DNA from: Bacillota bacterium
GTDB taxonomy: Bacteria; Bacillota; UBA4882; UBA10575
Length of the DNA stretch: 35,271 bases
Direction: 5' to 3'
NCBI GenBank assembly: GCA_012727535.1
Contig: JAAYGU010000058.1
Location: forward strand, 1-35,271
Shown: one piece after another, positions 13,822 through 30,914 of the stretch
Layout: each line of letters opens with the position of its first letter
How positions within the stretch are numbered: the first letter of the stretch is position 1
Translations under genes and position numbers: made by a program
Notes under the pieces: model-generated
What the model was told of the DNA's origin: nothing
Seen by the model: the letters and a program-made list of their open reading frames with translations, nothing else
Databases searched by the model: none

Positions 13822-14108
13822 TAATTTACCAAGTGGCCGGAGACAGAAAGCAAGTTTCTGTTCCGGGGAGTAGAAGAGAATGAAAGTGGCGATGAAGAGT
13901 GAGTAACCGGTAGAAGTTAGTCGCAGAGAGAAAGGCCGTTGGCTGGAAGCCTTTCCTAAGTTTGCCGGTGAAGACCGACTCGGAGCAGATGGTGAATTCA
14001 AGCCAAACGGTTGACACCGTTATCTGTCATGAAGCCGGGTCCTAGACCAACAAGGGTGGAACCGCGGGCCAATTTACCCGTCCCTTACCAGGGACGGGTT
14101 TGTTTTTT
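13822..14108 (+). promoter_or_regulatory. T-box leader controlling the Nudix gene and thrS
   Basis: The roughly 285-base leader has the T-box layout: GATGAAGAGTGAGTA and CGCAGAGAG in stem I, the distal-loop hairpin GGCTGGAAGCC, the specifier region GGTGAAGACCGACTCGGAGC, the T-box core AGGGTGGAACCGCGGG (14053-14068) and a terminator. In the family, uncharged tRNA pairs with the specifier codon and with the T-box bulge, favours the antiterminator and lets transcription pass. ACC (14974 is not in this leader; the codon is at 13974-13976) would read threonine, fitting thrS downstream; GAC (13973-13975) would read aspartate if the register were shifted by one. I favour ACC. Confidence 0.93.
14076..14108 (+). 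terminator. Regulated terminator of the T-box
   Basis: ACCCGTCCC (14076-14084) pairs with GGGACGGGT (14091-14099) around TTACCA and is followed by TTGTTTTTT. The left arm lies eight bases after the T-box core, as expected for mutually exclusive antiterminator and terminator folds. Confidence 0.93.
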
Positions 14109-27714: not shown

Positions 27715-29274
27715 TTAACCCAGGATCGCTTTTAGATCTTCGTCCGGGGTGCTGATCAGTTTAATGTTAAACTTGTCGACGAGGACCTTGAGGACATTCT
27801 CCGAGAAAAAGGCCGGAGGCGTTGGTCCCAGATAAATGTTTTTAATTCCTAAGGAGAGCAGCGTGAGGAGAATACAGACCGCTTTCTGCTCGTACCAAGA
27901 GAGAACGAGGGTGAGCGGCAGGTCGTTGACGCCGCATGCGAAAGCCTCCGCCAAGGCCAGGGCTACTTGGATGGCTGAATAGGCATCATTACACTGGCCC
28001 ATATCCATCAGCCGGGGAAGTCCTCCGATCGACCCGAGGTCAAGATCATTGAAGCGGTATTTGCCGCAGGCCAGGGTCAAAATGATGGTATCTTCCGGAG
28101 TTTTCTTCACAAATTCGGTGTAGTAGTTCCGGCCAACCCGGGCTCCGTCGCAGCCACCGACGAGGAAGAAGTGTTTAATGGCACCAATTTTAACTGCGGC
28201 GATGACTTGGTCGGCGACTCCTAGTACAGTATTGTGAGCGAAACCGGTAGTCAGCACGCTGCCGCCGTTAATTCCGGTCAGGTTCTGATCTTCATCCCAA
28301 CCGCCGAGTTCAAGGGCTTTATTGATCAGAGGGGTAAAATCCTTCTGCCCATTTTTGTCCGGGATGTGAACCAGCCCCGGATAACCGACGACTGAGGTGG
28401 TGAAGACCCGGTCAGCGTATGATGGTTTCGGCGGCATCAGACAGTTGGTGGTGAAAAGGATCGCTCCCGGGATGCCGTCTAACTCTTTTTGCTGGTTTTG
28501 CCAGGCGGTACCGAAGTTCCCCTTGAGGTGGGCATATATTATCAGTTCCGGGTAAGCGTGGGCCGGCAGCATTTCGCCGTGCGTATAGATATTGATCACG
28601 CGGCCTTCTGTCTGCTCCAGAAGTTGTTTTAAGTCATGAAAGTCATGGCCGGAGACGATGATGAAGGGTCCTTTTTCAATCACCGTGGTTACTTTGGTCG
28701 GGATGGGATGACCAAAGGTCGAGGTATTAGCCTCATCAAGTAAAGCCATACATTTGAGGTTGATCTGCCCGAACTCCATGAGGAGATCCAACCATTCCTC
28801 TACGGTATGCTCGGCACCGAGTGCACGTAGGCCTTTGTAGAACCAAGCCATGACTTCCTCGTCTTTCTTGCCGAGGACATAGGCATGCCAGGCGTAGGCT
28901 GCCATCCCACGTAACCCTAAAAGCAAGGTGGAACGGAGGGAGACGATGTCGGGAGCGCCGTTCCAAAGGGTGACGCCATCCAGGTCGTCAGCCCCTCCCA
29001 AACGGTCTTTTTCTTGCCGAACCAAGGCCGTAAGCTCCTCGATGCGGGCAGCGTCAAAATTGACATTTGTAATCGTGGCAAATAAACCCTGCATGATTAG
29101 TTCGTCCGCTTGTGGGGTAGTCTGACTTCCTGCGGCGCGGACCAACCCAACGAGTGCGCCGATCAGTTCGTCTTGCCCATTGGCGACATCGGGTTTCTTG
29201 CCGCAGCCTCCGGTGATGGTACACACTTTTCCGCCAGCGGTTTGTTCACATTGGAAACAGAACATGTTTTTCAT
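27715..29274 (-). CDS. hcp: Hybrid cluster protein (hydroxylamine reductase)
   Basis: Hcp carries an iron-sulfur cubane and a hybrid Fe-S-O cluster and reduces NO (or hydroxylamine) in anaerobes under nitrosative stress. The 519-residue protein shows the N-terminal cluster motif C6-x2-C9-x8-C18-x5-C24 (FCFQCEQTAGGKVCTITGG) and the hybrid-cluster segments GHDFHDL, THGEMLPAHAYPEL, NCLMPP, GCDGAR, ACGKYRFN and QCNDAYSA. It is slightly shorter than the usual 540-550 residues. The ATG follows GAGGAGG on the minus strand. It lies 40 bases behind the ferredoxin gene, and both are driven from the promoter under the palindrome at 30190-30205. Confidence 0.97.
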   Translation of the reverse strand: MKNMFCFQCEQTAGGKVCTITGGCGKKPDVANGQDELIGALVGLVRAAGSQTTPQADELIMQGLFATITNVNFDAARIEELTALVRQEKDRLGGADDLDGVTLWNGAPDIVSLRSTLLLGLRGMAAYAWHAYVLGKKDEEVMAWFYKGLRALGAEHTVEEWLDLLMEFGQINLKCMALLDEANTSTFGHPIPTKVTTVIEKGPFIIVSGHDFHDLKQLLEQTEGRVINIYTHGEMLPAHAYPELIIYAHLKGNFGTAWQNQQKELDGIPGAILFTTNCLMPPKPSYADRVFTTSVVGYPGLVHIPDKNGQKDFTPLINKALELGGWDEDQNLTGINGGSVLTTGFAHNTVLGVADQVIAAVKIGAIKHFFLVGGCDGARVGRNYYTEFVKKTPEDTIILTLACGKYRFNDLDLGSIGGLPRLMDMGQCNDAYSAIQVALALAEAFACGVNDLPLTLVLSWYEQKAVCILLTLLSLGIKNIYLGPTPPAFFSENVLKVLVDKFNIKLISTPDEDLKAILG

Positions 29275-29314: not shown

Positions 29315-30034
29315 TTACGAATCGACAATGGTACCGTCAGTGGCAATCGTCACCACCTGCCAGGGAATCATTTTTCCACTATTGACCAGTGCGGTCTGGA
29401 CGGCGTGGACGATCCCTCCACAACAGGGTACTTCCATGCGGATTACGGTGATGCTCTTCAAATTATTGTTGGCGATGATCGCGGTCAACTTTTCTGCATA
29501 ATCTACATTGTCGAGTTTGGGGCAACCGATCAAGGTGATACGATTTCTCATAAACTCCTTATGCATGTTGGCATAAGTATAAGCCGTACAGTCAGCTGCG
29601 ATCAGCAGGTGGGCGTCGTTAAAATAAGGAGCATTAACCGGCACCAGTTTTAGTTGGCAGGGCCACTGTCGGAGTTGGGAGGCCACCGGTTCCGCTGGCG
29701 TGGATGGAGCGGACGTGGCCGCTGTTGAAGGCCGGATGGTTTTTACCTGTTGACCGGGGCAACCGCAGGCTAAAGGTGGGGGACTGGCGGCCGCTTTACG
29801 TGCCAGGTGCCGTTTGACCGCTTCCTCATCGAAGGGAGCTGCCTCCCGTTCTTCAATGGTAATCGCTCCGGTCGGACACTCAGGCAAACAATCACCTAAC
29901 CCGTCACAGTAGGATTCAGAGACCAGCTTGGCTTTGCCGTCGACTAGTTGCAGGGCGCCTTCATGACAGGCGTCGATACAGAGACCGCATCCGTTGCACT
30001 TTTCTTCGTCAATCACGATAATATTTCGTTTCAT
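29315..30034 (-). CDS. Hcp-associated [4Fe-4S] ferredoxin protein
   Basis: The 239-residue protein begins with a ferredoxin domain (about 1-60): CNGCGLCIDAC holds four cysteines and CDGLGDCLPECP three more in the variant spacing often seen beside hcp. A Pro/Ala-rich linker (about 90-120) leads to a second domain (about 125-239) with further conserved-looking cysteines in ADCTAY, IGCPKLD and VPCCGG, which could hold another cluster or be redox-active. It probably passes electrons to Hcp. ATG 30034 (minus) follows GGAGGATCTCC; an earlier start at 30064 lacks this spacing. It is the first gene of the two-gene unit. Confidence 0.85.
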   Translation of the reverse strand: MKRNIIVIDEEKCNGCGLCIDACHEGALQLVDGKAKLVSESYCDGLGDCLPECPTGAITIEEREAAPFDEEAVKRHLARKAAASPPPLACGCPGQQVKTIRPSTAATSAPSTPAEPVASQLRQWPCQLKLVPVNAPYFNDAHLLIAADCTAYTYANMHKEFMRNRITLIGCPKLDNVDYAEKLTAIIANNNLKSITVIRMEVPCCGGIVHAVQTALVNSGKMIPWQVVTIATDGTIVDS

Positions 30035-30146: not shown

Positions 30147-30175
30147 TTGTGTTTTCAATGGTATTGTAATAAAAT
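30147..30175 (+). promoter_or_regulatory. Promoter of the Crp/Fnr regulator gene
   Basis: TTGTGT (30147-30152), a 17-base spacer and TAAAAT (30170-30175) predict a start near 30182, placing the palindrome at about +9 to +24. Confidence 0.5.
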
Positions 30176-30191
30176 AGGGGCAAAAAAGCGG
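30163..30191 (-). promoter_or_regulatory. Promoter of the ferredoxin-hcp operon
   Basis: On the minus strand TACAAT (30168-30163) is a good -10; the -35 position (about 30191-30186) falls at the edge of the palindrome and has no consensus, as expected for an activator-dependent promoter. The predicted start is 30156. Confidence 0.65.
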
Positions 30192-30205
30192 TAACCTAGG
30201 TTACC
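30190..30205. promoter_or_regulatory. HcpR-type operator, perfect 16-bp palindrome
   Basis: GGTAACCTAGGTTACC contains GTAAC-N4-GTTAC, the motif reported by comparative genomics for HcpR regulators of Clostridia and Thermotogales. It lies between the ferredoxin-hcp operon and the Crp/Fnr gene. Its centre is 41.5 bases upstream of the predicted minus-strand start, the classical class II activator position. Confidence 0.85.
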
Positions 30206-30218
30206 AAAAGGAGATGGT

Positions 30219-30914
30219 TTGGTGTATTCCAGATGGAGCCGGCCGTTATCGCGGTGTTGGTTGTTTACCGGTGTGGACGCCGCTGATCTAAATGTCATGT
30301 TGCAGTGCCTGAATCCGGCGCTGAAGGAGTATAAAAAAGAGGAATGTGTGACGGTCGCCGGGGAAGAGTTCAGCGGGGTGGGGGTGGTCTTGGCTGGGAC
30401 GGTGCTGGTGACGAAGGAGAATGCTGCCGGCCGGCGGGTCGTGCTGTCCGTTTTGGGGGAAGGGGATCTGTTTGGGGAGATGGTAGCCTTCTCCCAAGTG
30501 CAGAACTGGCCGGCCACCGTAATTGCGCAGCAGGCTTGCACCGTTATGTTTATACCGCCGGAAAAGATCATCGGTAACTGCCGGCAACAATGTGTCGGGC
30601 ACCGGTTGTTAATCCATAATATGCTCAGGATAGTGTCGGATAAGGCTCTGCGGCTGAATAAACAAGTAGCGTATCTGGCGATGAAAAGCATCCGGGGAAA
30701 GGTCGCCACCTTTTTACTTGAAGAATACAAAAGAGCCGGGACGGCCACTTTTATGTTGCCCTTAAAACGCCATGAAATGGCCGATTTCTTAAATGTTGCC
30801 CGTCCTTCGCTCTCCCGGGAACTGGGCAGAATGAAAGCGGAAGGTTTAATCGATTACCATCGTGCCACCGTTAAGATCTTAAATCTGGAGAAGTTAAAGC
30901 AAATGGTGGAGTAG
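30219..30914 (+). CDS. hcpR: Crp/Fnr family regulator, HcpR-like
   Basis: The 231-residue protein has a cyclic-nucleotide-binding-like sensor domain (about 15-130; VVLSVLGEGDLFGEM), a dimerisation helix (about 130-160) and a Crp-type winged helix (about 165-225) with the recognition region RHEMADFLNVARPSLSRELG. The N-terminal cysteine cluster of Fnr is absent, so it is not an Fnr oxygen sensor; HcpR homologues respond to NO, possibly by heme. TTG 30219 follows AAAAGGAG (30206-30212) by six bases; GTG 30222 is also possible, and the out-of-frame ATG at 30214 is not used. It is divergent from hcp and shares the palindromic operator, which supports the HcpR assignment. Confidence 0.88.
   Translation: MVYSRWSRPLSRCWLFTGVDAADLNVMLQCLNPALKEYKKEECVTVAGEEFSGVGVVLAGTVLVTKENAAGRRVVLSVLGEGDLFGEMVAFSQVQNWPATVIAQQACTVMFIPPEKIIGNCRQQCVGHRLLIHNMLRIVSDKALRLNKQVAYLAMKSIRGKVATFLLEEYKRAGTATFMLPLKRHEMADFLNVARPSLSRELGRMKAEGLIDYHRATVKILNLEKLKQMVE

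Follow-up and report, generated by a model that had tools for sequence, protein, structure and literature searches.

The window, by which we mean the entire 35,271-nucleotide stretch of DNA analysed, carries a frdX-hcp operon on the reverse strand and, divergent from it on the forward strand, the regulator gene hcpR, with a palindromic sequence located between them (Table 1). A single PF03063 match in the genome identifies hcp as the sole copy of this gene. The most likely start codon of hcpR is the GTG at 30222 and not the TTG at 30219, as the GTG is preceded by an AAGGAG ribosome-binding site, while the nearest relative (L007) has the same GTG and a CCG at the position of the window's TTG. 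A search against Rfam returned no RNA family at the hcpR/frdX locus, the sole match in the window being a T-box leader at 13883-14088 of the forward strand. A promoter identical to the consensus at 12 of 12 positions (TTGACA-17-TATAAT; 31116-31088, reverse strand) is located at the start of the next gene and is aimed at the 3′ end of hcpR.

Table 1. Genes and predicted regulatory features of the frdX-hcp/hcpR locus in the window.
Feature	Position	Strand	Remarks
hcp, hybrid cluster protein/hydroxylamine reductase	27715..29274	-	NCBIfam TIGR01703 and NF003658 above cut-off
frdX, ferredoxin-like protein of 239 aa, promoter-proximal gene of the frdX-hcp operon	29315..30034	-	Pfam Fer4 domains
hcpR promoter -35, TTGTGT (predicted)	30147..30152	+	17-nt spacer to TAAAAT
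frdX-hcp promoter -10, TACAAT (predicted)	30168-30163	-	+1 predicted at 30156, placing the operator centre at -41.5
hcpR promoter -10, TAAAAT (predicted)	30170..30175	+	+1 predicted at 30182, placing the operator centre at +16.5
Predicted HcpR2 operator, GGTAACCTAGGTTACC, perfect 16-bp palindrome	30190..30205		core GTAAC-N4-GTTAC at 30191-30204
hcpR ribosome-binding site, AAGGAG	30208..30213	+	2 nt past the operator; from sequence
hcpR, Crp/Fnr regulator, 230 aa, GTG start	30222..30914	+	Pfam cNMP_binding and HTH_Crp_2; alignment of 30

The hcpR product contains both domains of the Crp/Fnr fold (PF00027 and PF13545, above cut-off), its predicted structure has a mean pLDDT of 90.6, and a sequence search of solved structures assigned it to the Crp family and to nothing finer. 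The N-terminal cysteines are found only at positions 12 and 29, and as such the Fnr-type N-terminal motif is absent. Four residues, C29, C120, C124 and H127, are invariant in 30/30 regulators, do not follow the Fnr pattern and may possibly form a metal or haem site. The recognition helix reads R-P-S-L-S-R (RPSLSRE), which places a proline at position 181 in E. coli CRP numbering, according to our own reading of the helix; R194 and P195 are invariant among the 30 regulators aligned. Rodionov et al. tied an Arg180/Pro181 pattern to the HcpR2 motif GTAACnnnnGTTAC in the accessible text of their 2005 study (PMC1274295), in agreement with the first-pass assignment of the palindrome to an HcpR motif. 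This motif is located upstream of hcp at 30191-30204, and the regulator gene lies beside the divergent frdX-hcp operon. Judged by these sequence features, the window regulator appears to be of the HcpR2 type.

The first-pass annotation had described a perfect 16-bp palindrome, centred at -41.5 relative to a minus-strand -10 box and lying at about +9 to +24 relative to a plus-strand one, between overlapping divergent promoters. The palindrome is borne out by the sequence at 30190-30205, and both distances hold when counted from the starts predicted by placing +1 the customary 7 nt downstream of the -10, i.e. 30156 on the reverse and 30182 on the forward strand: with its centre at 30197.5, the 16-mer covers +9 to +24 of the predicted hcpR transcript. 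The two -10 boxes, TACAAT and TAAAAT, point away from each other and are separated by a single base, the predicted starts being 26 bp apart. The frdX-hcp promoter lacks a -35 element, the hexamer CCGCTT at 30191-30186 fitting 1 of 6 consensus positions. Allowing up to three mismatches, GGTAACCTAGGTTACC has a single match in the window (0.05 expected), and the search for further copies which the annotation had proposed found the exact GTAAC-N4-GTTAC motif once in the 2,232,569-base genome. Copies with at most one mismatch are not enriched genome-wide (40, exact site included, versus 85 for the reversed control pattern), and a wider regulon is therefore not claimed.

Conservation of this arrangement was analysed among relatives of the regulator, which were found at an E-value of 1e-15 in 55 of the 101 genomes searched. 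The 110 loci fetched comprised 30 from the genome search and 80 named loci, the best 80 of 513 confirmed in a bacterial genome collection, which were retrieved with a peptide pattern that accepted no residue other than Leu or Met at position 197. Removal of 20 duplicates left 90 distinct loci, and 13 without a site were excluded from the geometry counts, leaving 77; for L009 and L019, which carry two palindromes, the copy adjoining hcpR was counted. The site-finding matrix was hand-made after the first 30 loci had been inspected. In this set, which includes the best 80 of 513, a site is found within 250 bp of the regulator gene in 77 of the 90 distinct loci and not found at this distance in 13, and divergent frdX or hcp genes accompany the regulator in 67/90. 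Among the 13 siteless loci, L021 alone has a divergent frdX, 1.6 kb away. The 23 loci without a divergent frdX or hcp include four with hcp on the same strand only and 19 with neither gene in the sequence stretch, some of these stretches being short. The layout is present, among others, in Clostridium ljungdahlii (L107), Heliobacterium mobile (L094), Pelotomaculum terephthalicicum (L062), Lutispora thermophila (L077) and Desulfosporosinus fructosivorans (L106).

Relative to the operator, reverse-strand TA...T boxes peak at -41.5 and forward-strand ones at +16.5, each in 62 of the 77 loci (again including the best 80 of 513), against a mean of ~4% over all offsets. Because both boxes recur at fixed offsets in this way, the -41.5/+16.5 geometry is, on these counts, not coincidental. 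A site near -41.5 from the predicted start, in 62/77 loci, and a poor or absent -35 are both features of class II Crp/Fnr promoters, and the conserved position supports the proposal that a single site activates the ferredoxin-hcp operon. Both -10 boxes occupy the window register in 57 loci, are both shifted by one base in nine and are not both present in 11, from which it appears that the two boxes tend to move together. The TTG of the hcpR -35 element is at the exact window position in 47/77 loci, with a spacer of 16-20 in 67/77. Column conservation, computed for 30 loci, is concentrated in this TTG, both -10 boxes and the operator, the spacers being mostly weakly conserved. Within the operator, bases 1, 2 and 5 of each half are invariant in 77/77 loci, while pairing fails at the fourth pair of the palindrome in 11 loci and at the inner two pairs in 21 and 36.

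We suggest, with a probability of roughly three in four (about 0.77), that one operator serves two back-to-back promoters, through class II activation of frdX-hcp and a block of hcpR. Both promoters are of the housekeeping type and, given the abutting -10 boxes, polymerases of the two directions would be expected to exclude each other, so that RNA polymerase would use one promoter at a time. The hcpR promoter, with its -35 element, would maintain a basal supply of the regulator, and the frdX-hcp promoter, without one, would depend on it. Nitrosative stress would presumably bring the regulator into its DNA-binding state, the signal presumably being NO or nitrite as in relatives (accessible parts of PMC12750200, PMC12915319 and PMC13370916). 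A regulator dimer on the palindrome may then activate frdX-hcp from -41.5 in the class II manner and, in covering +9 to +24, block hcpR, resulting in negative feedback. We infer binding, start sites, signal and direction of regulation from sequence. The shut-off of hcpR may likewise occur through operator blockage, RNA polymerase competition or both, modes which loci with a single shared site do not separate.

Loci at which the two functions have become separated were studied in 17 genomes, namely the window's family and one order-mate, with 26 promoter copies. In these, frdX was searched for in all 17 genomes and the motif in 16, all but the window's own, and the copy classes were set after the data had been seen. 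All 17 hcpR copies, which were identified from the gene and not from the motif, carry the exact motif. For the hcp target-only copies in G003, G008 and G010 the exact motif served as the search query, and operator retention there does not count as a result. Both -10 boxes are intact in all 11 shared copies, of which two face a P-type ATPase gene in place of frdX and one, from G008, is counted in this class even though its contig stops short of the partner gene, too early to tell. The nine target-only copies, of which six lie at frdX and three at hcp, retain the reverse -10 in 9/9, with a forward TANAAT in 0/9 and the TTG in 1/9; two of them (TAAACT and TAAATT) still have TA...T in the forward box. 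Conversely, the six regulator-only copies have the forward TANAAT and the TTG in 6/6 and a reverse TA...T in 1/6, the exception being G009, where the reverse -10 is intact though the divergent gene is absent. The p-values for these contrasts (Fisher: 9e-5, 3e-7 and 6e-6) are uncorrected for relatedness. At the frdX relative of G016 (L139), the exact motif was not found.

The ten outer bases of the operator are identical in all six regulator-only copies, with flanks at 48-63% pairwise identity. In four of these genomes hcpR is located behind a co-directional gene for an 806-aa penicillin-binding protein (end-cut in G015), which leaves the operator there with no divergent gene to activate. That the operator is kept in 6/6 while the reverse -10 is broken in five suggests that it serves hcpR itself. 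This dissection provides the strongest evidence for control of hcpR by the operator and lends support to autoregulation, the weakest step of the first-pass proposal; we would furthermore argue from the regulator-only copies that operator blockage is at least part of the hcpR shut-off. In a tree of the relatives of the window protein only, G002 and G009, with intact reverse boxes, fall between G012 and four others with broken ones. Read by eye, this tree suggests that loss of the reverse box probably happened two or more times. The decays stem from a single family, in perhaps two or three events. G011 and G012 carry both copies within a single intergenic region, spaced 80 and 216 bp apart, which is the arrangement expected after a duplication. 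Remnants of hcpR starts were sought next to the target-only copies, and similarity over 26-38 nt (blastn E 8e-3 to 3e-8) turned up in G013 and the second G002 copy alone, the others giving none; the interpretation of target-only copies as hcpR relics is as such a lead only. The second G002 palindrome, which was left out of the dissection counts, belongs to locus L159 (G002:C14, position 2265); an hcpR-like start adjoins it, and a gene encoding a hemerythrin domain follows the palindrome after 426 nt. In two genomes of one genus (L170 in G010 and L171 in G003), hcpR is divergent from the P-type ATPase gene with both -10 boxes intact, and hcp is located elsewhere with a palindrome of its own.

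It is alternatively conceivable that the regulator only activates frdX-hcp and that hcpR falls solely through polymerase exclusion, the operator itself blocking nothing. In a semi-synthetic E. coli bidirectional promoter, CRP at -40.5 activates transcription in one direction and blocks it in the other; with a CRP site at -60.5 the block is lost along with the activation, which points to polymerase competition, and bound regulator is no barrier to transit (accessible part of PMC12825309). The one-base distance between the -10 boxes of the window is compatible with this. However, such competition would hardly be possible in the regulator-only copies, with their conserved operators and mostly broken reverse -10 boxes, and the operator overlaps the start region of hcpR, making this explanation an unlikely one. 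Repression of both promoters by the intact regulator, with release through NO damage, would fit a Desulfovibrio desulfuricans protein also named HcpR2, modelled as a repressor relieved by NO (accessible part of PMC5701242), and the invariant C29, C120, C124 and H127 (30/30) could hold a metal centre. In 62/77 loci of the set that includes the best 80 of 513, however, the site replaces the frdX-hcp -35 element at the position from which class II activators act, and in the available text of three reports loss of hcpR lowers hcp and frdX expression in Clostridioides difficile (PMC12915319) and abolishes hcp transcription in Bacteroides thetaiotaomicron (PMC13370916), while HcpR activates hcp in Porphyromonas gingivalis (PMC12750200). 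We regard dual repression as distinctly improbable.

A further possibility is that the palindrome works at the RNA level, forming a hairpin in the leader of hcpR that serves as an attenuator or as a partner of the regulator, and not as a DNA operator. Folding of the leader does give a hairpin of 6 bp (-6.5 kcal/mol; z -2.3) and, according to the accessible text of PMC13370916, an RNA antisense to the hcp promoter of B. thetaiotaomicron, with a hairpin over the HcpR site, aids hcp induction. We give this reading very little weight, as target-only copies without a forward promoter should make no such RNA themselves, yet the operator is kept there, and its letters are fixed beyond pairing, with positions invariant in 77/77 loci and inner pairs often broken. 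By analogy with the proposal for the Bacteroides RNA, SnoA, the conserved unit might be an orientation switch in which its own RNA plays a part: the hcpR leader RNA, with the operator as a hairpin, might help the regulator in trans at hcp promoters, which would also explain operator retention in the transcribed leader of separated hcpR copies; the chance of this is slim. A terminator scan listed the palindrome as terminator-like on the minus strand, but the letters, the spacing and the dissection pattern are all conserved, and both this terminator reading and the view of the palindrome as a chance or leftover sequence, with no role at either promoter, are rejected as having next to no likelihood.

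The reading of one operator acting at two promoters builds on a known regulatory relationship, as HcpR2 control of hcp has been known since 2005. The locus shares with the HcpR2 regulon of Rodionov et al. the GTAACnnnnGTTAC motif, the Pro181 signature, the hcp/frdX target and the adjacent regulator gene; that study, as far as its accessible text goes, describes motif and regulon without the promoter geometry or HcpR2 autoregulation presented here, and autoregulation is mentioned once in its main text, for NorR2 (PMC1274295). Promoter mapping, autoregulation or autorepression, and an overlapping two-promoter design for HcpR2 were not found in the literature searched, which covered few subscription papers; the same search found no duplicated, split bacterial bidirectional promoter. 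As in E. coli PsoxS/soxR and the CRP-fitted PacrA/acrR, one site would activate one direction with the opposite RNA turned off, and SoxR represses its own gene through such a bidirectional promoter, activation in E. coli repressing the opposite RNA mostly via competition (accessible part of PMC12825309). The E. coli promoters of this kind share one -10 and have starts mostly 18, 10 or 23 bp apart, whereas the window has separate -10 boxes and a predicted distance of 26 bp; furthermore, the CRP case is semi-synthetic while the window locus is natural (PMC12825309, accessible part). The single pseudo-symmetric -10 that defines the bidirectional promoters of Warman and Grainger is absent; the locus appears to work like a bidirectional promoter but is not classed as one. 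Transcription opposite hcp, across the hcp promoter and HcpR site, also occurs at the SnoA locus of B. thetaiotaomicron, where the opposite transcript is a small RNA encoded downstream of hcpR, whereas here it would be the hcpR mRNA (available text of PMC13370916). Similarly, the product of the Crp-family gene crp represses crp itself in E. coli by way of a site that lies downstream of the start, but there one activating and one repressing site take the place of the single site considered here (available text of PMC3050693).

Little work has been done on how overlapping divergent promoters are controlled, and the CRP example is an artificial construct (accessible part of PMC12825309). The frdX-hcp/hcpR locus looks like a natural, widely kept one-operator version of such promoters, its layout being retained across dozens of related bacteria and in some split into two one-way versions. 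These split copies make the question of whether one site performs two functions directly testable, through comparison of shared, hcp-only and hcpR-only copies, and HcpR2 gains a concrete prediction, namely negative feedback on its own gene.

Residue 197 of HcpR (window 30810-30812), the third position after Arg194, is Leu or Met across the 77 loci. Sites without a GTAAC half are associated with Met197 in 13/13 cases and with Leu197 in 0/64, in a set for which the sampling pattern admitted only Leu or Met, and this is the only alignment column with full separation of site types. On the tree the residue changes six times, and three independent, well-supported pairs are all concordant, too few for significance (sign test p 0.25). 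Along with 180 and 181, residue 197 may be a third position that sets specificity. Outside the window, the same genome encodes a Crp/Fnr paralogue (G000:C13, locus L172, 534-1925), which is 30% identical over the matched part. The divergent gene next to it encodes 4Fe-4S domains, and GGTGTTACCAAGGTAACACC is located between the two, centred at -41.5 from the TATAAT of the target and at +13.5 from the paralogue's own TATAAT. By these predicted positions the paralogue follows the same plan, the target distance being identical and the self distance different.
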